Shown one piece after another: positions 29,027-51,472 of a stretch of 64,000 nucleotides of DNA. The notes under the pieces were generated by a model, which was given only the letters and a program-made list of their open reading frames with translations, was not told where the DNA came from and did not search any database. Positions within the stretch are counted from its first letter, which is position 1; each line of letters opens with the position of its first letter. The position numbers were made by a program, and so were the translations under genes. Origin of the DNA: Spinacia oleracea (taxonomy: Eukaryota > Streptophyta > Magnoliopsida > Caryophyllales > Amaranthaceae); the NCBI RefSeq assembly GCF_020520425.1, contig NC_079487.1, positions 106,612,141 to 106,676,140 on the forward strand, written 5' to 3'.

Positions 29027-30508
29027 TGACAGGCTAAATCGCACTCCTATCAAAGATAAACCTAACGTTCACCAACTAAAAATATAGCAAGGGAAGCAGG
29101 GATCGTATCCACAGGGAAACAATGTTCTTTCTACTATTAATTAACTAATCTAGACTACTGGTAATAAAGAATTGGATTGGTTTGTATATTAAGCTAAGGC
29201 AAATAATCAAACTGGAATATAACAATATTAAGGGAATTTAGGGCAGCGGTTCACCACAAATGCAGAGCAGGATTGGACAACGGACAATAACAATCAATGA
29301 ACAATCATAATTAGGAAAACATGCATCTCTCGAATCTTATGAATTCCTTAGGATACAACAACTAGCGGGCTCTCGCTACGTACTAGAAATAATTCCTATC
29401 TAATAGCCACAGACCAAAAAACATCATATTTATACCTCTCGGCGCATAATCTAAGGTTAATCAAACTCAAATCAAAATAGTCCGGCCGAACAGAACTGAC
29501 GAGCAATAATAATAAGCTATAGAAATTATAATCAATCAATCAATTAATCAAGTCCATATATAATCCCAATCATGCATTCATGGATCCCCTAAACCCTAGA
29601 AATTAAACTACTCACTCATGATAATAAATAACAAAGCAATTAACATAATAGAAAACATGATCAAGCAATAAGATAAATTAAAGCAAGAAACAATACCGAC
29701 TTGAAGAACAATGGAATAATAAAGCTTGAATCTTTGATAAAAATTAAAACTAAGTGTTTGGAGAAAATAGAGAGAACTAAAATAGACTAAGTAATTAGAA
29801 AACTAGAATAAAAGATGTCACTAAAAATATAAGGGGCTAGTATTTATAGTTTGCCCAAAATAGAGCCCAAAATCGGAAATAAAATCTCGCGAAATACGAT
29901 GGAGGTTGGCGTGGCCCGATCGGGCGACGCTTGGCCCGATTGGGCGATGTGCTCGATACTCGGCCCGATCGGGCGAAATTCCGCCCGATCGGGCGGTTGC
30001 AAAATGCCCAGAACAGCGCCCAGAATGACCGCCCGATCCGGATCGGGCGAAGCCCGCCCGATCGGGCGCGTGTTGAAACTGCACGATCCTCTATCTTAAA
30101 AACACCATATCTCCTTCGCTATAAGTCGGAATTAGGCGAATGACCACTCGTTGGAAAGCTCTTGAAGTCTAGAATCCAACCCAATTTGAATCGCTTCATT
30201 TGGAGTTGTATAACTCGAGTTATGATCAAAAGAGTGGACGATATTCAGTTTTCTACTTCTTTCACTATTCGCTTTGCATGAAAATTCTTCCAACTCAATG
30301 TTTGCGCTCTCGAAAGTATATAATCTCTTGTATTGATTCAAATGAGTAGGAAATGCACAAAAATATGCTAATTCCTACAATGATGAACCTGAAACTACAA
30401 ACACACTACAAGGAGCACATTAGTACTAAAATCGCTCCGAAGAGCTTATTTGAGATCAAAAAGTACTAAGGGACGGGGGTAAAAACTCTATATAAAACGC
30501 ATATATCA
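29027..30508 (-). mobile_element. LTR-like insertion (probable solo LTR), 1482 bp
   Basis: TG...CA termini (TGACAGGC on the + strand, ATATATCA at the other end) are flanked by the 5-bp duplication AGGCC (29022-29026 and 30509-30513). It interrupts LINE ORF2 between two codons that become adjacent again if the insertion and one AGGCC copy are removed. It has no coding region, primer-binding site or internal LTR pair, so a solo LTR is the simplest reading. The minus strand carries TATAAATA (29841-29848), which suggests its transcriptional orientation. Phrases such as ccctgtggatacgatccctg near the minus-strand 3' end resemble Ty3/gypsy (Tat-like) LTRs; that lineage call is tentative. Confidence 0.82.
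29913..30068. repeat. cluster of GCCCGATCGGGC palindromes
   Basis: Six copies or near copies of a 10-12 bp GC palindrome lie within ~155 bp of the LTR-like insertion: ggcccgatcgggcg, ggcccgattgggcg, ggcccgatcgggcg, cgcccgatcgggcg, cgcccgatccggatcgggcg and cgcccgatcgggcg. The block is a GC island in AT-rich surroundings, just upstream of the minus-strand TATA box. Confidence 0.85.
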
Positions 30509-43249: not shown

Positions 43250-44476
43250 TCTAAAATTAAAAGGAGACATATTTGCTGAATTATTAGAGCACACGTAGAT
43301 TATTATTGGTTTCGGTCAATGAAAAATAAGATTTCTAATTTAATTTTGAATTAAAAAATTCGAGTGTCACGTAGATAATTAATTATGTGCCAGATATAAA
43401 TTTTAATTATTTAATTACTAATATATACAACTCCGTACAAAATCAAACACTCTAATAATTAAAATAATATATAATATAGCAGTTGGTGTAATTAAAAATA
43501 ATTAACAATCACTAATCTAAAATAATATATTAATAATTAAAAATAATTAACAATCACTAATCTAAAATAATATATAATATAGCAGTTGGTGTAAGAGTTT
43601 TATTTTAACTTAACAAATTAATAAAAACCGTGCATCGCACAGGCTAAAATATAAAGGAGACATAGTTGCTGAAATATTAGAGCGCCACCTAGAATTACTA
43701 TTGGTTTCGGCCAATAAAAAATAAGATTTCTAATTTATTTTTGAATTAAAAAAATCAAGTGCCACGTAGATATTTTAGATAATTAATTAATAATATGTAC
43801 AACTCCATCCAAAATCAAATACTACTAATTTAAAAAATTCTAAAATAAAATTTAATCCAAAATCAAACGCTAATCTAAAATAAAATTTTGTCCAATGACA
43901 AACACTGATACAAATAATATTAGAGCGCCACCTATGAAATCTGATGGTTCGGGCCAATGAAAAGTAAGATTTCTAAATTATTTTTGAATTAAAAAGGTCG
44001 AGTGTCGCGTAAATAAATAATTAGGTGCCACGTAGATATTTTATTTAATTAATTACTACTCCCTCCATTCCTTTTTGTTGTACCCATAAGGAATGTTGGG
44101 GGTATTTTAAGAAAACTGAATCTTGGGTTGTATTGGGATATGGGTAATGATTGGGTGTAAGAATAATGATTGTGTGTAAGAAAAATAATAAAGTAAAGAG
44201 AGAGAAAGTATTAAATTAATTGGGGAAAAAGTAGATATTTATTAAAGTATTGAAATAAATCAGCAAATAAATTCAGTCACATGGGGCCATGGGACCCATC
44301 TGAGATTACATGGACCAATAAGAAAGCAGCAAACAATGAATCACGTTTTTTTGGCTGGAAATTTTGGCCAAACTGTTGACTTTCACTTTTCCCTCCAAAA
44401 TTTTCCCAAAATAAAAAAACAGGGGATTACATTTTTCCCTCCAAATTTTTGAGGGGTTGTAAAAGTGAATTCCCTT

Positions 44477-44484
44477 TATAAATA
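44477..44484 (+). promoter_or_regulatory. TATA box of the mariner transposase gene
   Basis: TATAAATA in tccctttataaatagggtc, 110 bp upstream of the transposase ATG, at a distance consistent with an ~80-nt leader. Confidence 0.6.
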
Positions 44485-44594
44485 GGGTCACTTTCTCCCA
44501 CAAAAGAACAAAATCTGACTAAAACCAAGTTCAATAAATACACCAAAAATTCTTCCTCAATTCAGCATTAAAGAGCCAAAAAACAGGGGACTTA

Positions 44595-46241
44595 ATGGCT
44601 TCAGATCAAGAGGATGACGATTTCCTCGGTTTTTCTGATGATGAAGGCGACGGCATTAACTCCGATTCTGACTCGGAGGAAGGTGATGATGCTGCTGACT
44701 TGGTACAAGCTTCTCAAAATACTGCTGCTGAATTTGGGGACATTGGGTTTAATGAAGATGTACCAAACAGCACTGAATATGTACAGCAAGTACCAGAAGT
44801 AGAAGGGGAAGGGCAGCAGCAAACTACCAACTTTCAAGAGGTACCCTTTCTTTTTGATTTGAACTTTCCACCACCATCAGAAAATGCATCACCTCATCAT
44901 CATCAAACAGCAACACACACAACAGATCATCACAAGCCAAGGACTCCAAGAATAAATAATGAATTGAGGCTAGAAATATTGGTGTTCCTGCTCAATAGAA
45001 AGATTCCAGATTCAGAAACTTTGTTGTATGGGGCAATAAGGGATGCAGTCATAGAATATGATTACACCAGAAAAACCATAGGCAAAATATGGGACAAAGC
45101 AAAGAAACAGAAGGCAGCAATGAATTCATATATTGTGCAAAGCCAATATCACAGATGTGGAAGGAAAAAGGTTCAAGTCTCCTATGACTCAATTGCAAAA
45201 ATAGGCATGGGGGACAGAACATGCATCGTAGATCTTGCAAGAATGCTGAATTTGGGACCAACAACAGTATGGAGGCTCATCAAGAGGAAAATTATAAAGC
45301 CACACTCAAGTCCCTTGCATCCAGGCATTTCAGAAGCATGCAAAATGGCAAGGATAAGGTGGGCAATCAGACTGATAATGGACTACACTATACCACAAGA
45401 ACCAACATATTACAGCATGTATGACTTCATTCATATTGATGAGAAGTGGTTTTATTTGACTCAAAAAAACCAGAGAGTTTATCTTGCAAACAATGAACCC
45501 TATCCACACAGAAGTGCAAGTTCAAGAACCAAGATACCAAAATTCATGTTCATGGCAGCAGTAGCCAGACCAAGGTGGGGTGAAAATGGGGAATGTGAAT
45601 TTGATGGTAAAATAGGCATATTTCCATTCACAAATGCAATTGCAGCCAAGAGGACATCAAAAAACAGACTCAAGGGGACCATTGAAACAAAGCCAGTGAA
45701 GTCTGTAAATCAAATAGAGACAAGGGCAATGATGATCAACAACCTACTTCCAGCAATCAAGGCCAAGTGGCCACCACATGAAGGGGAAAAGGTCATCTAT
45801 ATCATTCAAGATAATGCAAAGGCACATATATTGCAAAGTGATCCTGAATGGCAACTACACTACAAACAAGATGGGTTCACTTTTGTGTTGACTCAACAGC
45901 CAGCAAACAGTCCAGATTGCAACATCTTGGACTTGGGATTTTTCAGGTCAATACAATCACTTATGCACAAGAAAATGCCTAAAACTGTGGAGGACTTAAG
46001 TGGAGCAGTGTATGATTCTTTTAATGAGTTGCATCCTAAGACATTGTCTAATGTGTGGATGACATTACAGTTTGTTTCTAATGAGATTCTAAAACACAAA
46101 GGCAACAATGATTACCAACTTCCACACAACAAGAAGAAGATTTTAGAAGATGAAGGCAGACTGCCAGAGCAAGTCAAAGCACCTATATGGGCAGTTAATG
46201 AATGCATGCAACTCTATGATGAATGGAAAGCAAACCAGTGA
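44595..46241 (+). CDS. mariner-like transposase (DD39D)
   Basis: 548 aa, uninterrupted. A very acidic N-terminal ~65 residues is followed by a His-rich linker (about 100-118). A DNA-binding region with helix-turn-helix segments lies at about 120-265 (RLEILVFLLNRK, CIVDLARMLNLGPTTVWRLIKRK). The catalytic core has D282 (FIHIDEKWFYL), D406 (IIQDNAKAHI) and D446 (NILDLGFF). The spacing D-x39-D is diagnostic for plant mariner-like transposases. It cuts and pastes the element at TA sites. The ATG follows a TATA box and short leader; no intron is needed. All catalytic residues are present, so it is probably functional. Confidence 0.95.
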   Translation: MASDQEDDDFLGFSDDEGDGINSDSDSEEGDDAADLVQASQNTAAEFGDIGFNEDVPNSTEYVQQVPEVEGEGQQQTTNFQEVPFLFDLNFPPPSENASPHHHQTATHTTDHHKPRTPRINNELRLEILVFLLNRKIPDSETLLYGAIRDAVIEYDYTRKTIGKIWDKAKKQKAAMNSYIVQSQYHRCGRKKVQVSYDSIAKIGMGDRTCIVDLARMLNLGPTTVWRLIKRKIIKPHSSPLHPGISEACKMARIRWAIRLIMDYTIPQEPTYYSMYDFIHIDEKWFYLTQKNQRVYLANNEPYPHRSASSRTKIPKFMFMAAVARPRWGENGECEFDGKIGIFPFTNAIAAKRTSKNRLKGTIETKPVKSVNQIETRAMMINNLLPAIKAKWPPHEGEKVIYIIQDNAKAHILQSDPEWQLHYKQDGFTFVLTQQPANSPDCNILDLGFFRSIQSLMHKKMPKTVEDLSGAVYDSFNELHPKTLSNVWMTLQFVSNEILKHKGNNDYQLPHNKKKILEDEGRLPEQVKAPIWAVNECMQLYDEWKANQ

Positions 46242-46460
46242 AGCAAAGTGAAAACAATTAGATAACTTTTTGTGTTTTGGGGACATGTTTTTAAATTGAC
46301 AAGTAAAACCAATGTGTCACTTTTGTAAGCTTAAATGCAAGCATAACATGTAGGCAAAACATTTTGTAAGCATATCTTTTGGAAGCATCAATGAATGAAT
46401 CTCATGTTTAAGTTTAGTAAAGTTTTTTTCTTCATTCTTATTCACATCAATATAGAGTAA

Positions 46461-46588
46461 TCAAGGCAAGGCAATAAACAAGGCAGCATTGGCAGAAAAA
46501 GTACAAGGCACAAGAGGTAAGGCAGCATTGGCAACACTATAAACAAGGCAGCATTGGGTTCTTAAGAACAAGGCAGCATTTGCAATAT
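46461..46588 (+). repeat. acaaggcagcattggca short repeats
   Basis: At least four copies of (a)caaggcagcatt(t/g)gca at irregular spacing lie between the transposase gene and the first hairpin; another aacaaggaagcaatgaacaagg stretch lies at 47078-47098. Confidence 0.6.
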
Positions 46589-46697
46589 CACAACTCTAAA
46601 CACATCGGCTTCAAAATGGAAATAAATAATAATATCACATCATTTTCAGATGGAAATTATTCCCATTCTGAAACCGATGCGTCAAAAGATGTAATTT
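46589..46697. ncRNA. foldback A1 (pre-miRNA-like)
   Basis: The 5' arm 46602-46625 pairs with 46657-46679, with about three mismatches in 23. The loop is about 31 nt, and weaker pairing extends into a lower stem (ctctaaacacatcgg with ccgatgcgtcaaaagatg). It shares its outer scaffold and loop (tatcacatcattttcagatgg) with A2 but has different arm bases. Transcription and processing are inferred, not seen. Confidence 0.5.
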
Positions 46698-46766
46698 TGA
46701 CAAAAACAATCAATTCATCATTGATAACACATGGAATATGCCTCACATAAACAAAGAATCATAAAT

Positions 46767-46914
46767 ATCTCAGAATGTCCCCAAAAATCATTGAATCAAA
46801 CCCTTTCCAATTAAACTTAGCTCCTGAAAAACATCATGGATGCTAATGGTGCATGAGTTTGATTGAAAAACAAAGGGTTTGACACTCATAAAATGAAGAC
46901 TCATCACAGATCAC
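46767..46914. ncRNA. foldback B1 (pre-miRNA-like)
   Basis: The 5' arm 46793-46819 pairs with 46855-46883: TCAAACCCTTT with AAAGGGTTTGA and CAAT(T)AAACT with AGTTTGATTG, with an asymmetric bulge in the 3' arm. The scaffold is shared with B2 and B3: atctcagaatgtcccc at the left, gatgctaatggtgca near the loop, gactcatcacagatca at the right. Confidence 0.5.
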
Positions 46915-46941
46915 AAGGCATAAGTACAAAAACTTTATCAC

Positions 46942-47050
46942 ATCACATCTCTAAACACATCGGCATCCAAATGGAAAGAATGCATATCACATCATTTTCA
47001 GATGGAAATTCTTCCCAATTGGATGCCGATGTGCCAAAAGATGTAATGGA
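46942..47050. ncRNA. foldback A2 (pre-miRNA-like)
   Basis: The 5' arm 46956-46981 pairs with 47008-47033, 24 of 26 positions complementary, loop 26 nt. The lower stem extends outward (ctctaaac with ccaaaagatg). Relative to A1, the ATCC/GGAT pair replaces TTCA/TGAA in the same position of both arms. Confidence 0.55.
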
Positions 47051-47140
47051 CAAGGAAACAAGAACAAAGCAGTAAAAACAAGGAAGCAATGAACAAGGCA
47101 ACATCATTGACTCTCAGTTAAGTTGTTTTACATCATTGAC

Positions 47141-47275
47141 AGATTTGTTTCTAAATGATTTACAACCTCACCACCAATTCACCAAAGGGGATACTAGATC
47201 AATCAATGATGTGACATGATCTGTATTCCCTTTGCTGATTGGTGGTGAGGGACATGTTTAGAATCAAATATCTCA
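47141..47275. ncRNA. foldback C (pre-miRNA-like)
   Basis: The 5' arm 47166-47194 (starts cctcaccaccaatt) pairs with 47223-47250 (ends attggtggtgagg), with about three mismatches and one bulge over 28 positions. The loop is 28 nt. A lower stem pairs gatttgtttctaaa with tttagaatcaaat. Confidence 0.55.
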
Positions 47276-47388
47276 GGTTATCAACACATACATCACAGAA
47301 TATCAACACTAACATCATTGAATATCAGAAACACATTATACATGTTTTGCAATACATGAATTGCCTCTCCTGTCTAACCTGACATAAG

Positions 47389-47534
47389 ATCTCAGAATGT
47401 CCCCAAGCATCATTGACACAAACCCTATCCCCTAACACTTAGCTCCGGAAGAGCATCAATGATGCTAATGGTGCACAAGTGTTATTGGAACATTGGGTTT
47501 GAGTCTCAGCAAATGAAAGACTCATCACAGATCA
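47389..47534. ncRNA. foldback B2 (pre-miRNA-like)
   Basis: The 5' arm 47415-47441 pairs with 47476-47505: CAAACCC with GGGTTTG and TAACACTT with AAGTGTTA, with a 3'-arm bulge as in B1. Same outer scaffold and loop phrase as B1 and B3. Confidence 0.5.
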
Positions 47535-47555
47535 AGCATAACAATAACAATCAAC

Positions 47556-47657
47556 AATGCATCAGATCACCATGAACTGATCAAAACATAGGGTTTGAAC
47601 CTCATCAAATGAAAGACTCATCACAGACCTCCACTGATTCATGGGACATGAAGCATT
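47556..47657. ncRNA. foldback E (weaker)
   Basis: The 5' arm 47556-47580 (aatgcatcagatcaccatgaa) pairs imperfectly with 47632-47657 (ttcatgggacatgaagcatt). The loop contains a stray B-type 3' half (catagggtttgaacctcatcaaatgaaag...), so this may be a rearranged B module. Confidence 0.35.
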
Positions 47658-47740
47658 AAACAGATCATTAACATGTAGGGTTTCATTTCTCAGACATATT
47701 GACACACATCATTGATCAAGTAGTTTCAATACTATCATAT

Positions 47741-47830
47741 CTTTAACATTCTTCTGCCGAACGGAATGATTGATATTCACATTCCATTGTGTGAAATGAC
47801 ATTCACTCCGTTCGACAAAAGAAGTTAAAG
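47741..47830. ncRNA. foldback D (pre-miRNA-like)
   Basis: The 5' arm 47741-47770 (ctttaacattcttctgccga...) pairs with 47801-47830 (ccgttcgacaaaagaagtta...), about 25 paired positions with a few mismatches and a 2-nt offset. The 30-nt loop has its own small stem (tattcaca with tgtgaaat). Confidence 0.55.
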
Positions 47831-47902
47831 GACAATTATCAAAACAAAGATCTCAGAATATCAACAATCACATCATTGAAGATCACAAACCTCCTAATAT
47901 TG

Positions 47903-48052
47903 ATCTCAGAATGTCCCCAAGCATCATTAAAACAACTCCAAACCACAAACACTTAGCGCCCGAGAAATATCATTACTGATACTAATGGCAGCACGAGCAT
48001 TTGTGGTTAGTTGGACTTGTTCCTCAGCAAAAAAAAGACTCATCATCGATCA
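47903..48052. ncRNA. foldback B3 (pre-miRNA-like)
   Basis: The 5' arm 47931-47953 pairs with 47996-48021: AACAA.TCCAA with TTGGA.TTGTT and ACCACAAA with TTTGTGGT, with a 3-nt bulge. It has the same scaffold as B1 and B2 but an almost wholly different arm sequence. Confidence 0.5.
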
Positions 48053-48544
48053 CAACAAATAAAGGGACATTATTGTATCCTAAAGGGACATGCTTGGACA
48101 TTAAGCATTCAACACCAGGCCACACTGAGAGGACTGAAATAACCCAAACCCTATCCCCAAATTATGATCATTTCATGCCCTGACTAATCCAAAACATAGT
48201 TATACTGATCAAATCTCATACTCACCAAAGCATCATATTTATCATACACAAAACATACCATAAAACAGGGGACATTAAGCCATCAAATCATGTTCATCAC
48301 ACAGACAACATTCCACAAAATTTCATAACCATATGGAAACACCATCATCCAATCATCATTATCAATATCAATTCCATAACATCAATATCTAACATCAACA
48401 TCCATACAACTAATCACAACATCATCATCCAAACAACAACACCCCTGGCCAACAACAGATCACAGTTGTTGGCATCCACCTTATGACTCCACAGCTAGCC
48501 AGCATTCAATAAAATGAAAAAAGGGAGAAAGGAGACAGACTTAT

Positions 48545-49641
48545 CTAAGCATCATCAGACGCTGAAGCCGATTTTTTTCCCTTCCCTCCTTTCTTTGAGG
48601 AGGGATAACCAGATGAAAGTTGTCCTGGAGACCCAACAGCATCACCATTCTCATTTTCACACTCTCCAACATACACCAGATCAAATGAATCAGACCCACT
48701 TGGTTCCTTGCAATCAACAGGGGACAAACAACATGATTAGTGCCCTCATAAAATAACAGGGGACCATGAATTAAAATCAGATTTAATCAAACAACTCAAA
48801 ATAAAGTTCCAAATAATTTCAGATCACCATGGTTACCACATGCAATGAGATAAATGAGAGCAAATACATCCAGATCCCATTTTTAACCACATGCAATGGG
48901 AAATCAGATCAACAAAACACAGGAATATTCCGATTTTCTTCAAATAATTTCCAAATACCTCCAAATAAAATCAGAACTCAATTTTAACAACATGCAATGA
49001 AAAAACAGATCACAAAATACCCATAGAACTCAATTTTAACAACATGCAATGAGAAAACAGAGCAAAGAATAACATAAAAAGCCCGAATGAATCCAACAGA
49101 TCTCCAAAAAATTCTTTTAAATTTCGAAATAATACCAGATCTGCATTTTTAACACATGCAATGGGAAATCGGACCAACTTATCCAAAAAATAATCCGAGT
49201 TTAATGAACAATACTCCAAATAAATCCAACATTTATCAAATCCCACTTTTTTACACATGCAAACAATCATCAAACCATTTTATTAAAACCGACATCAATA
49301 ACCCTTAAAAAATCGCAAAAAATCAAAAGTAATACCTCATCGGAATCTCCTTCACCGAAAAAACGCAGATCTGAGGGAGTGGGTTTCCGATCGTCATATT
49401 TTGACTCAACCTCCTCTCCTGGCTCCACTTCCCTCTTCCGAAACCATTCTTCCAAATAGTTTCGAGTACTCGTATTTTCTTTTTGGGCCAAATACAGATT
49501 GTTTTTATATTCGGCGGAGTAGGAATGCTCGTTATTGGGACAGTTGCACTTGGATCCCCAATCACAGTTGGAATCGGGGATTCTTTGACCAGTAGTTCCC
49601 ACCCCAGAATCACCTCGAGTTCTAGAAAAAGAAGAACCCAT
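48545..49641 (-). CDS. second gene of the mariner-like element, unknown protein (2 exons)
   Basis: Exon 1 (49641-49336, ATG at 49641) ends at a GAG|GTATTAC donor. Exon 2 (48706-48545) joins in frame after a CAAG acceptor and ends TAG, giving about 155 aa. The protein starts MGSSFSRTRGDSG and has two Cys pairs (NCDWGSKCNC). A charged YLEEWFRKREVEPGEE segment and an acidic exon end follow, then a Lys/Ser-rich basic tail (KKGGKGKKSASASDDA). I recognise no family, though the short Cys-rich N-terminus recalls small zinc-finger accessory proteins. The upstream minus-strand leader is TC-rich with aaccctaggttttcc-like plant leader sequence. It converges on the transposase across the hairpin array. 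The acceptor is weak, so exon 2 is tentative. Confidence 0.5.
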
Positions 49642-49844
49642 AACGTACCAGAAAAACAAAGATCAGCGACGATTAGGGACCAAAAAGGGGACAAAAATAG
49701 AGGGGATCTGATCGGAAAATCAATCCGAGTAATTTGTATGAAAGTTTTTCGGCAAAAACGTTTCAGATTTGTGAGATTTGGAGAGGAAAACCCAGATCAG
49801 AGGCGGAAAACCTAGGGTTTTCTCAAGAACAGGGGAGGGATTTT

Positions 49845-49935
49845 AAGAGAGAGAGAGAGTGAAATAAGAGAGAGAGAGAGATCCGAAGAGGTGAGAGAGA
49901 GAAATCAGAATGAGAGAGAGAGAGATCAGAATGAG
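49845..49935. repeat. (GA)n microsatellite, TC-rich leader of the antisense gene
   Basis: Imperfect gagagaga runs. On the minus strand these are CT runs upstream of the 49641 ATG, a common feature of plant 5' UTRs. Confidence 0.75.
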
Positions 49936-50671
49936 AGAGTGAAATCAGAGGGATGAAAGGGATGGGTAATAAAGGGAGGGGGGGTAGGGTTAGGTTAAAT
50001 AATTAAATAAGGTGGGTGGGGTAAAAGTGGGTGGGAAAGGGTAGAATCTTAGGGTATTTTTTGTAAATATTGGGGAATCTTAGGGTAAATTGGTAAAAAA
50101 ACTATGGCCAAAAATAGTAAAGATTCAGTAGGGGAACAACAAAAAGAAACGCCAAAAAAGGAAATGGGAACAACAAAAAGGAATGGAGGGAGTAATATAT
50201 ACAACTCCATATAAAAACAAACACTCAAATAATTAAAAAAAATCTGAAATAAAATTCATCCAAAATCAAACACGTACTAATCTAAAATAAAATTCAATCC
50301 AAATTAAACATTAATCCAATATTAGAGAGTCACGTAGGAAATCTAATGGTTTCGGCTAATGAAAAATAAGATTACAAAATTATTTTTGAATTAAAAATGT
50401 CAAGTGCCATGTAGATAAATAATTAGGCGCCACGTAGATATTTTTATTAATTAATTATTAATATTACGCATATGCAATTTCATTCGAAATCAAACACTCT
50501 AATAATTAAAAAATAAATATAAAATGAAAAAATTCAATCCAAAATTATAATATAACAGTTAATATAAATAGGAGTTTTACTTTAACTTAACAATTTAATA
50601 GAATCCTTGCATCGCACGGGCTAAAATCTAGTCTAAATATAACTTTTTATGAAATCTGGTAGACAATCTAA

Positions 50672-51472
50672 TCTAATGTATATATATTATATATAAATGA
50701 GGCATATTTGATGAAAAATTTGAGCGCCACCAAGGATTACTATGGGTTTCGGCCAATGAAAAATAAGATTTCTAATTTATTTTCGAATTAAAAAAATCAA
50801 GTTCCACGTAGATAAATAATTAGGTGTCAAGTATATATTTTAATTAATTAATTAATACTCCACAATTCCATCCAAAATCAAATACTTTAATAATTAAAAA
50901 AAAAATCTAAAAAAAAAAATTAATCCAAAATCAAACACTAATCTAAAATAAAAATTTGTCCAAAGTCAAACACTAAATAAATAATTAGGTGCCAAGTAGA
51001 TATTTTAATTAATTAATTAATAATATATATAACTCCATCCAAAATCAAATACTCTAATAAGTAAAAATAAATCTAAAATAAAATTTAATCCAAAATCAAA
51101 CACTAACGTACCTATATAAAATAAAAATTTGTCCAAAGTCAAACACTAATCCAATATTAGAGCGCCACATAGGAAATCTAATGATTTCGGCCAATAAGAT
51201 TTCTAAATTGTTTTTGAAATAAAAAAGGTCGAGTGCCATGTAAATAAATAATTAGGTGTCACGTAGATATTTTAATTAACTATTTACTTATATATACAAC
51301 TCTATCCAAAATCAAACACGCTAATAACTAAAATAAACAAATAAATAATGAAATTCAATTCAAAATCAAACACTAATTTAATCTAATATTTAAAATATAG
51401 CAGTTGTAATAGGATTTTTATTTTAACTTAACGATTTAATGAAATTCGTGCATCGCACGGGCTAAAATCTAG
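50672..51472 (+). mobile_element. Helitron-like element, 801 bp
   Basis: It starts TCTAATGTATATATA after an A and ends CTAG before T (51473). The terminal hairpin CGTGC-ATC-GCACG is at 51447-51459. It contains three repeats of the window's Helitron module (gagcgccac...ttcggcc...aggtg(c/t)ca(c/a)gtagatattttaatt). Non-coding. Confidence 0.75.

Follow-up and report, generated by a model that had tools for sequence, protein, structure and literature searches.

A hairpin array with compensatory base changes inside a mariner-like transposon of spinach

The stretch of Spinacia oleracea DNA analysed here (64,000 nt; NC_079487.1, positions 106,612,141 to 106,676,140 of the forward strand; hereafter the window) contains a complete mariner-like element of 6134 bp, which has terminal inverted repeats (TIRs) at its ends (44059-50192) and is flanked by TA target duplications (44057-44058 and 50193-50194). 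Plant DNA transposons are usually pictured as a transposase gene between inverted repeats. Between its transposase gene and a convergent second gene (gene 2), this element also carries an array of hairpins, the pairing of which is maintained by compensatory change. These features suggest that the transposon makes structured non-coding RNAs of its own. Both the completeness of the element and the position of the array had been proposed in an original prediction made from the sequence; the former is borne out by the TIRs, TA duplications, length and DD39D transposase, and the latter by the mapped coordinates and strands. The features of the locus are as follows.

44059-50192, strand not applicable: mariner-like element (DD39D), with TIRs beginning CTCCCTCCATTCC, TA duplications on both sides and inverted repeat I2.
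44595-46241, plus: transposase open reading frame, 548 residues, with relatives found by protein search.
46591-48054, minus: hairpin array, its strand read from G-U pairs and folding energies; putatively transcribed.
46591-46693, minus: hairpin A1, defined by fold, strand and alignment.
46761-46915, minus: unit B1, with degenerate D' and C' boxes and one degenerate stem pair.
46946-47045, minus: hairpin A2, with apical loop CTGA-AAA-TGATG.
47114-47295, minus: unit C, with modules at 47295 and 47135 flanking the hairpin at 47160-47257.
47383-47536, minus: unit B2, framed like B3.
47555-47690, minus: stretch E of the original prediction, the hairpin of which is not significant.
47690-47875, minus: unit D, with modules at 47875 and 47711 flanking the hairpin at 47741-47829.
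47897-48054, minus: unit B3, consisting of GATC stem, box-C-like GATGATGA, D'-like CTGA, hairpin, C'-like ATGATGC, D-like CTGA and GATC.
48545-48706, minus: gene 2 exon 2 with the stop codon, splicing read from the sequence.
49336-49641, minus: gene 2 exon 1, starting with MGSS, splicing read from the sequence.

The array folds clearly below the energy of shuffled sequence. On the plus strand, the two halves of the array have z scores of -13.8 and -5.1 (20 dinucleotide shuffles per half). On the minus strand, where single hairpins were compared with 100 mononucleotide shuffles each, z scores are -9.0 for A1, -10.7 for A2, -9.3 for C and -9.4 for D, and range among the B hairpins from -2.9 (B1) to -3.8 (B2) and -3.7 (B3). 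In the same minus-strand analysis, E (47555-47690) has a z score of -1.5 and no 21-nt duplex; judged by eye, it may be a decayed fragment of a B unit. The eight foldbacks originally listed are thereby reduced to seven, namely A1, B1, A2, C, B2, D and B3.

G-U pairs are distributed unequally between the two strands. Counts on the minus and plus strands, respectively, are 6 and 0 in A1, 5 and 2 in B1, 6 and 1 in A2, 1 and 2 in C, 7 and 1 in B2, 6 and 2 in E, 5 and 1 in D, and 10 and 1 in B3. The minus strand is thus richer in seven of the eight stretches, with 46 G-U pairs against 10 overall. Folding energies follow the same trend and are lower on the minus strand in 7/8 stretches (for instance, -46.6 versus -25.6 kcal/mol in A1 and -51.3 versus -32.9 kcal/mol in B3). 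C is the exception in both respects, its energy being -52.3 kcal/mol on the minus and -55.0 kcal/mol on the plus strand. Because a G-U pair turns into an A-C mismatch on the opposite strand, this bias indicates a minus-strand RNA, and it points to an array that belongs to the minus strand, on which it follows gene 2 in the same orientation. The possibility of plus-strand microRNA (miRNA) precursors was rejected on the same grounds, C alone folding slightly better on that strand. The original prediction, which called for folding both strands, had overlooked which strand the array belongs to, its link to gene 2 and the kink-turn (K-turn) frame described below.

Copies of the array were sought in the 894-Mb genome. 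The full array (from base 1 or 3 to 1521) is present at 99-100% identity in all 40 copies scored, these being the best-scoring of 293 candidates, so that its recurrence in other copies of the element is confirmed. Two outcomes that the original prediction had named as refuting it, folding energies like those of shuffled sequence and an array missing from every other copy, were thus not observed. Among 30 copies, 69 substitution columns occur in 1471 bp of the array (outside which the alignment is unreliable), and 55 of these are private to one copy, indicating that the family is young. A search with a related transposase, P0003, as a query, in which 79 of 685 candidates were scored, identified sister families. 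The window represents family I, and P0003 itself defines family II. Family III is 75% identical to P0003 and has an array that, by eye, is close to that of the window; family IV is named for a copy at 88%. Sister arrays were taken from one copy per family (L032 with L063 for II, L061 for III and L062 for IV), and hairpins were read only in these loci and in L059 and L060, other family II loci being outside the count. The same kinds of hairpins are found in families I to IV and vary in number and order, with 7 in I, 8 in III, 9 in II and 11 in IV. Three types are absent from the window: F and G, found in II and IV, and H, found in IV.

Some features of the sister loci were recorded separately. 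The further hairpin types F, G and H are seen at loci L062, L063 and L074-L077, and F variants of other elements show, by eye, paired changes in both arms. In L061, the D-E-B2 stretch is duplicated and the second B hairpin is truncated, showing how arrays may grow and decay.

The transposase genes of families I and II share 74.8% identity at the DNA level and 51.9% at 133 four-fold sites. In comparisons of the window with L032, the A hairpins are 86.7-87.7% and B2 is 83.2% identical, as measured by local alignments, which display matching stretches only and therefore favour the hairpins. Pairing is preserved where sequences have changed. In B units (n=9; three units of L061 were excluded from the 12 found), both sides have changed in 18 of 30 pairs, and 92.6% of the cells are paired; the covariation score is 0.494, compared with 0.183 for shuffled alignments (reached in 0 of 500) and at most 0.138 for slid alignments. 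In the A hairpins (all 11 found), both sides have changed in 7/36 pairs, with 97.5% of the cells paired and a covariation score of 0.206 versus 0.104 shuffled (again 0/500) and at most 0.060 slid. Changes on both sides were also observed in 4 of the 28 pairs of D (seven of eight sequences, L061:2082-2170 being excluded); five C sequences were aligned and stand outside the pair counts. Taken with the strand bias, compensatory change therefore marks the array as a selected RNA rather than a set of nested miniature inverted-repeat transposable elements (MITEs). The claim that the foldbacks look like functional RNA and not like nested MITEs is supported by this evidence, by the presence of the array in 40/40 scored copies, by the homologous arrays of the sister families and by the 21-nt duplexes of A1, A2, C and D, which have 0-2 unpaired positions.

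A recurrent module surrounds many of the hairpins. The array of the window contains eight TGATG-N12-14-CTGA modules on the minus strand, compared with a mean of 0.72 and a maximum of 4 in 300 shuffles (counted as TGATG-N9-15-CTGA). Sister arrays contain 12 (III), 7 (IV) and 7 (II) modules, with shuffle means of 1.03, 0.64 and 0.59; the family II bracketing count misses one D-unit module, owing to a 9-base overlap at the array join. The opposite strand has none in any of the four arrays; in the remainder of the window, counts are 0 on the minus and 4 on the plus strand. The eight modules of the window flank B3, D, B2 and C, two per hairpin. C and D had been described as unrelated to A and B; as far as B is concerned, this is too strong, since B, C and D have flanking UGAUG...CUGA modules in common.

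B units follow a more elaborate layout. Their terminal stem (GATC/GATC, CATC/GATG or GGTC/GACC) is fully paired in 8/9 units and covaries; after it come three loop bases and then GAUGA, and CUGA (8/9) directly precedes the other strand of the stem. RUGAUGA occurs in 9/9 units, largely by construction and to that extent without weight, since B units were selected by a pattern with GATGAG (or GCTGAG) plus TTGGGGACAT; the terminal stems and CUGA are independent evidence, as the letters of the pattern are not. The nine B units accordingly present the box C/D combination of RUGAUGA with CUGA beside a terminal stem. In the C and D units of the window both modules are present, and the terminal stem was checked in the B units only. 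We take the B layout to be that of the box C/D K-turn, with a second box pair at the base of the long hairpin. A hairpins carry CTGA-N3-TGATG in the loop in 11/11 cases. Spacers pair within units (-7.8 kcal/mol in D, -5.1 in B and -3.4 in C), and are unlikely to serve as ribosomal RNA guides because they pair with each other in this way.

The element has the features of the plant mariner-like (DD39D) class, namely TIRs, a TA duplication and a DD39D transposase, the catalytic residues D406 and D446 being spaced by 39 residues. Relatives of the transposase are found in Spinacia at 72-73% and also in Beta and Amaranthus. A domain scan yielded HTH_17 below the cut-off only (21.5 bits versus 27 needed), and a scan of viral contigs gave no confirmed match to the transposase. 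Gene 2 consists of two exons on the minus strand and is convergent to the transposase gene. Its joined product of 155 residues matches P0121, an uncharacterized protein of Spinacia oleracea that is also 155 residues long, over the full length at 97%. The small protein (48545-49641, minus) starts with MGSS and contains CDWGxxCxCPNxEHSYS and an invariant EVEPGEEVES. Identity is 67-69% in three of four relatives, and the fourth (84%) represents the type found in the window itself, with the reading continued into the intron. The gene 2 protein has no Pfam domain above the cut-off, and a fold prediction from five sequences was unusable (mean predicted local distance difference test score, 45.8).

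Other motifs in and around the element were also noted. GGGGACA occurs on both strands of the element, on the plus strand at 44736-44742, ~46279 and ~48268, and on the minus strand in the B units. TTGGGGACA is found in all nine B units, but the pattern used to select them contains it; GGGGACA/TTGGGGACA may be a protein or RNA binding site and is regarded as a candidate only. Downstream of the array, 46470-46560 (minus) contains short TGCTGCCTTGTT repeats, and similar repeats occur in families II, III and IV. Repeats ending in GCATCGCACGGGCTAAAATCTAGT-like sequences, which we take to be Helitron-like, surround the element (43570-43653, 50547-50630 and 51388-51471; repeat family D8), so that it seems to be nested in a repeat cluster. 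The strongest foldback in the window lies outside the element, at 29941-30070 (-75.1 and -77.5 kcal/mol on the two strands, in 130-nt windows).

Plant miRNA precursors have no more than about five unpaired positions in the 21-nt duplex and an energy below that of shuffled sequence. The best 21-nt duplex, taken anywhere in the fold, has 0 unpaired positions in A1, 1 in A2, 2 in C and 0 in D, and these four hairpins fit the structural rules. B1 (5), B2 (4) and B3 (4) are marginal, and E fails. Comparison with Rfam revealed no family at threshold for the array, either snoRNA (small nucleolar RNA) or miRNA; the best miRNA match is MIR1509, with 38.7 of the 87 bits needed. Below threshold there are 32 matches, 25 of them on the minus strand, comprising 30 miRNA families, BTnc060 and one weak archaeal C/D family. 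Part of PMC9029227, which describes spinach flower miRNAs, gives no miRNA sequences. Six arms of A2, C and D, taken as 14-15-mers in U spelling only, do not occur in the article main texts searched.

If the hairpins are guides, the 3p arms read in antisense would be expected to resemble codons of a target. When they are read in this way (TSASKW in A, FNILLPNG in D and VVLPKGI in F), changes lean towards synonymous third positions. Permutation p values are 0.027 for A and 0.057 for D, compared with 0.13 for C, 0.15 for A-5p and 0.30 to 0.82 for B; the signal was noticed before being tested, and the statistics are weak. A, D and F jointly give p ~0.02, with the best frame chosen and columns counted by hand, and a without-replacement version of this test gives 0.0017, with windows picked after looking.

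Target sites in the genome were searched with codon-degenerate or mismatch patterns for the 3p arms of A, C, D and F, which miss more-mismatched sites; array flanks were excluded, at the loss of some true sites, and 5p arms and B were outside the search. These searches identified no host gene site for A-3p, C-3p, D-3p or F-3p, some matches being uninspected. The exact A pattern has seven matches. Six were inspected and consist of one array copy and five sites with no evident gene; the seventh (C5:18186815) lies inside array copy L016. With up to two mismatches, A has 140 matches versus 1 in a backward control; most among those listed repeat known arms, and six are unplaced (four starting with TTA and two with GTC). 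Two of the four C matches lie beside an A match, one is 0.3 kb from an F match and one has no open gene. Of three D matches, two look by eye like a Ty3/Gypsy gag read in a different frame, and one has no evident gene. The F mismatch search yielded 23 matches versus 1 in the control: the three inspected are array hairpins, and a further nine are no more than 1.5 kb away from an A match with up to two mismatches. Three matches were obtained in the F codon search: one at a distance of 1.8 kb from a transposase of family II, one array-like by eye and one uninspected. No site in RDR loci is found among the matches listed, which include part of the 140 A matches; the comparison with silencing genes consisted of these loci and did not reach AGO, DCL, DRM, CMT, MET1 or Pol IV/V. 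Targets in host silencing genes, as originally proposed, are therefore unsupported so far by searches of limited sensitivity that returned no host gene. A scan of 14 guides against four texts gave no clear self-target in the transposase or gene 2, with the exception of B2-5p on the transposase (score 4.5 versus a control minimum of 6.0). C-3p scores 3.5 on the minus strand of the remaining window, where the control minimum is 4.0.

With modest confidence, we lean towards the view that the array is a polycistronic transposon non-coding RNA, composed of minus-strand hairpin units in a K-turn frame that act for the element as guides or decoys. The array would form the 3' portion of the transcription unit of gene 2, on the minus strand, and its RNA would fold into separate units. 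In the window, four of these (B2, B3, C and D) each combine a K-turn-like box C/D motif, RUGAUGA...CUGA, and a short helix formed by two 12-14-nt spacers with a 20-30-bp hairpin and a second, inverted C'/D' motif, and B1 does so in degenerate form; the short terminal stem additionally closes the B units, and A units are long predicted hairpins with CTGA-N3-TGATG in the loop. Such units may bind a K-turn protein of the SNU13/15.5K type and be excised as stable RNAs, and their hairpins may be presented to Dicer-like enzymes. They would then serve the element by acting like miRNA guides or by decoying the nuclear silencing machinery. For B, the arms of which drift in sequence while their pairing stays, a role through structure, as a decoy or in a ribonucleoprotein, is favoured; A and D are possible guides.

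Several observations weigh against this account. Among young copies (n=30), hairpins are barely less polymorphic (46 columns in 1074 bp) than spacers (23 in 397 bp). Between the window and L032, the rest of the array is just 72-74% identical; B3 reaches 73.8%, 353 bp around A1-B1 72.8% and 230 bp at C 72.2%. The A and B folds were derived from the alignments on which they were scored, and are therefore favoured over slid versions, and the B terminal stem was added by eye. Covariation events are not independent, because the units are partly paralogs within one element. As for the frame, the module motif was noticed first and tested afterwards. Bracketing is incomplete in II and IV, where the A, F, H, IV C2 and IV D hairpins are not enclosed by two modules; some boxes are altered in II and IV, with IV_G carrying CTTA instead of CUGA. 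The pairing of spacers within units is unlike that of true C/D guides, but C and D spacers pair across units as well (-8.6 kcal/mol). The absence of an Rfam family at threshold counts on the same side, and the C/D match below it, snoPyro_CD at 47506-47534 in B2, is weak (17.3 bits, E=2).

A cluster of miRNA genes, the hairpins of which would yield, on dicing, 21-22-nt guides for the cleavage of host mRNAs, those of silencing genes in particular, is a possible though doubtful alternative. There is a precedent in rice, where, according to part of PMC3459959, CACTA elements carry miR820, and miR820 and its OsDRM2 site have co-evolved. The nearly perfect duplexes of A1, A2, C and D, the predominance of miRNA families among the sub-threshold Rfam matches and the synonymous lean of the A and D 3p arms all agree with such a cluster, but the codon signal preceded its test and is weaker in C, A-5p and B, the B arms drift in sequence, the site searches, in which not all matches were inspected, led to arrays, stretches with no evident gene or sequences that are Ty3/Gypsy-like by eye, and the self-target scan gave nothing clear in the transposase or gene 2 except B2-5p. 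A more specific version of the account that we prefer seems rather unlikely: the units would be polycistronic box C/D-like ribonucleoprotein RNAs, each with a Dicer-type hairpin, and a snoRNA-style address would bring double-stranded RNA decoys or guides to bear on host silencing. The nucleolus and Cajal bodies are gathering sites of plant RNA-directed DNA methylation factors.

It is less probable still that the array is a cis-acting structured 3' region, which stabilises the gene 2 transcript, retains it in the nucleus or ends it, and prevents read-through into double-stranded RNA with the transposase mRNA. Its location downstream of gene 2, in the same sense and convergent to the transposase, would suit this role, as would the variable number of units in families I-IV, expected if bulk structure matters; however, arm covariation, the conserved A loop, the boxes and the bracketing in the window exceed the needs of a generic stem region. 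Inverted repeats are frequent within transposons, and the similar polymorphism of hairpins and spacers among young copies is what neutral palindromes would show. Yet compensatory changes, identity of A and B2 above that of neutral sites, the G-U strand bias and the presence of the array in all scored copies make palindromes devoid of function, or nested MITEs, very improbable; the latter were rejected on covariation and strand bias.

Related spinach subfamilies, at least two of which have 30 or more copies, retain the structured-RNA array, and parts of it are better conserved than the silent sites of their own transposase. What non-coding RNA a transposon needs can thus be tested directly in a crop for which small-RNA libraries exist, and the array offers a many-copy natural test of RNA-based counter-silencing by transposons. 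If the K-turn frame is true, box C/D particles and Dicer hairpins are united in a single mobile element.

Keyword searches of a literature that leaves out most subscription papers returned no such array in a mariner-like element or other plant DNA transposon. Plant polycistronic box C/D snoRNA clusters are similar in layout, with RUGAUGA and CUGA by a terminal stem, the order C-D'-C'-D, a spacing of ~12 nt and several units per stretch, the likeness being one of arrangement. Unlike box C/D snoRNAs, the spinach units have a 20-30-bp hairpin in place of the short D'-C' link, spacers that pair mutually and no Rfam snoRNA match at threshold, and they are borne by a transposon. In MITE-derived miRNAs, the foldback is the transposon itself, whereas the spinach array comprises several units inside an autonomous element, units that the original prediction describes as lacking flanking target duplications. 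The two have in common foldbacks of transposon origin that resemble miRNA precursors, as part of PMC10004981 describes for plants. Drosophila TART is reported, in part of PMC7785250, to counter host silencing by the piRNA (PIWI-interacting RNA) machinery; TART is an animal telomeric element that involves piRNAs, and spinach has structured hairpins, for which the site searches gave no target. The closest parallel in kind is miR820 (PMC3459959, in part), a foldback held by a plant DNA transposon besides its own genes. For miR820, a miRNA, the target OsDRM2 has been demonstrated; for the spinach array no target was found, and each element has 7-11 hairpins, set in a K-turn-like frame and accompanied by a second conserved gene.

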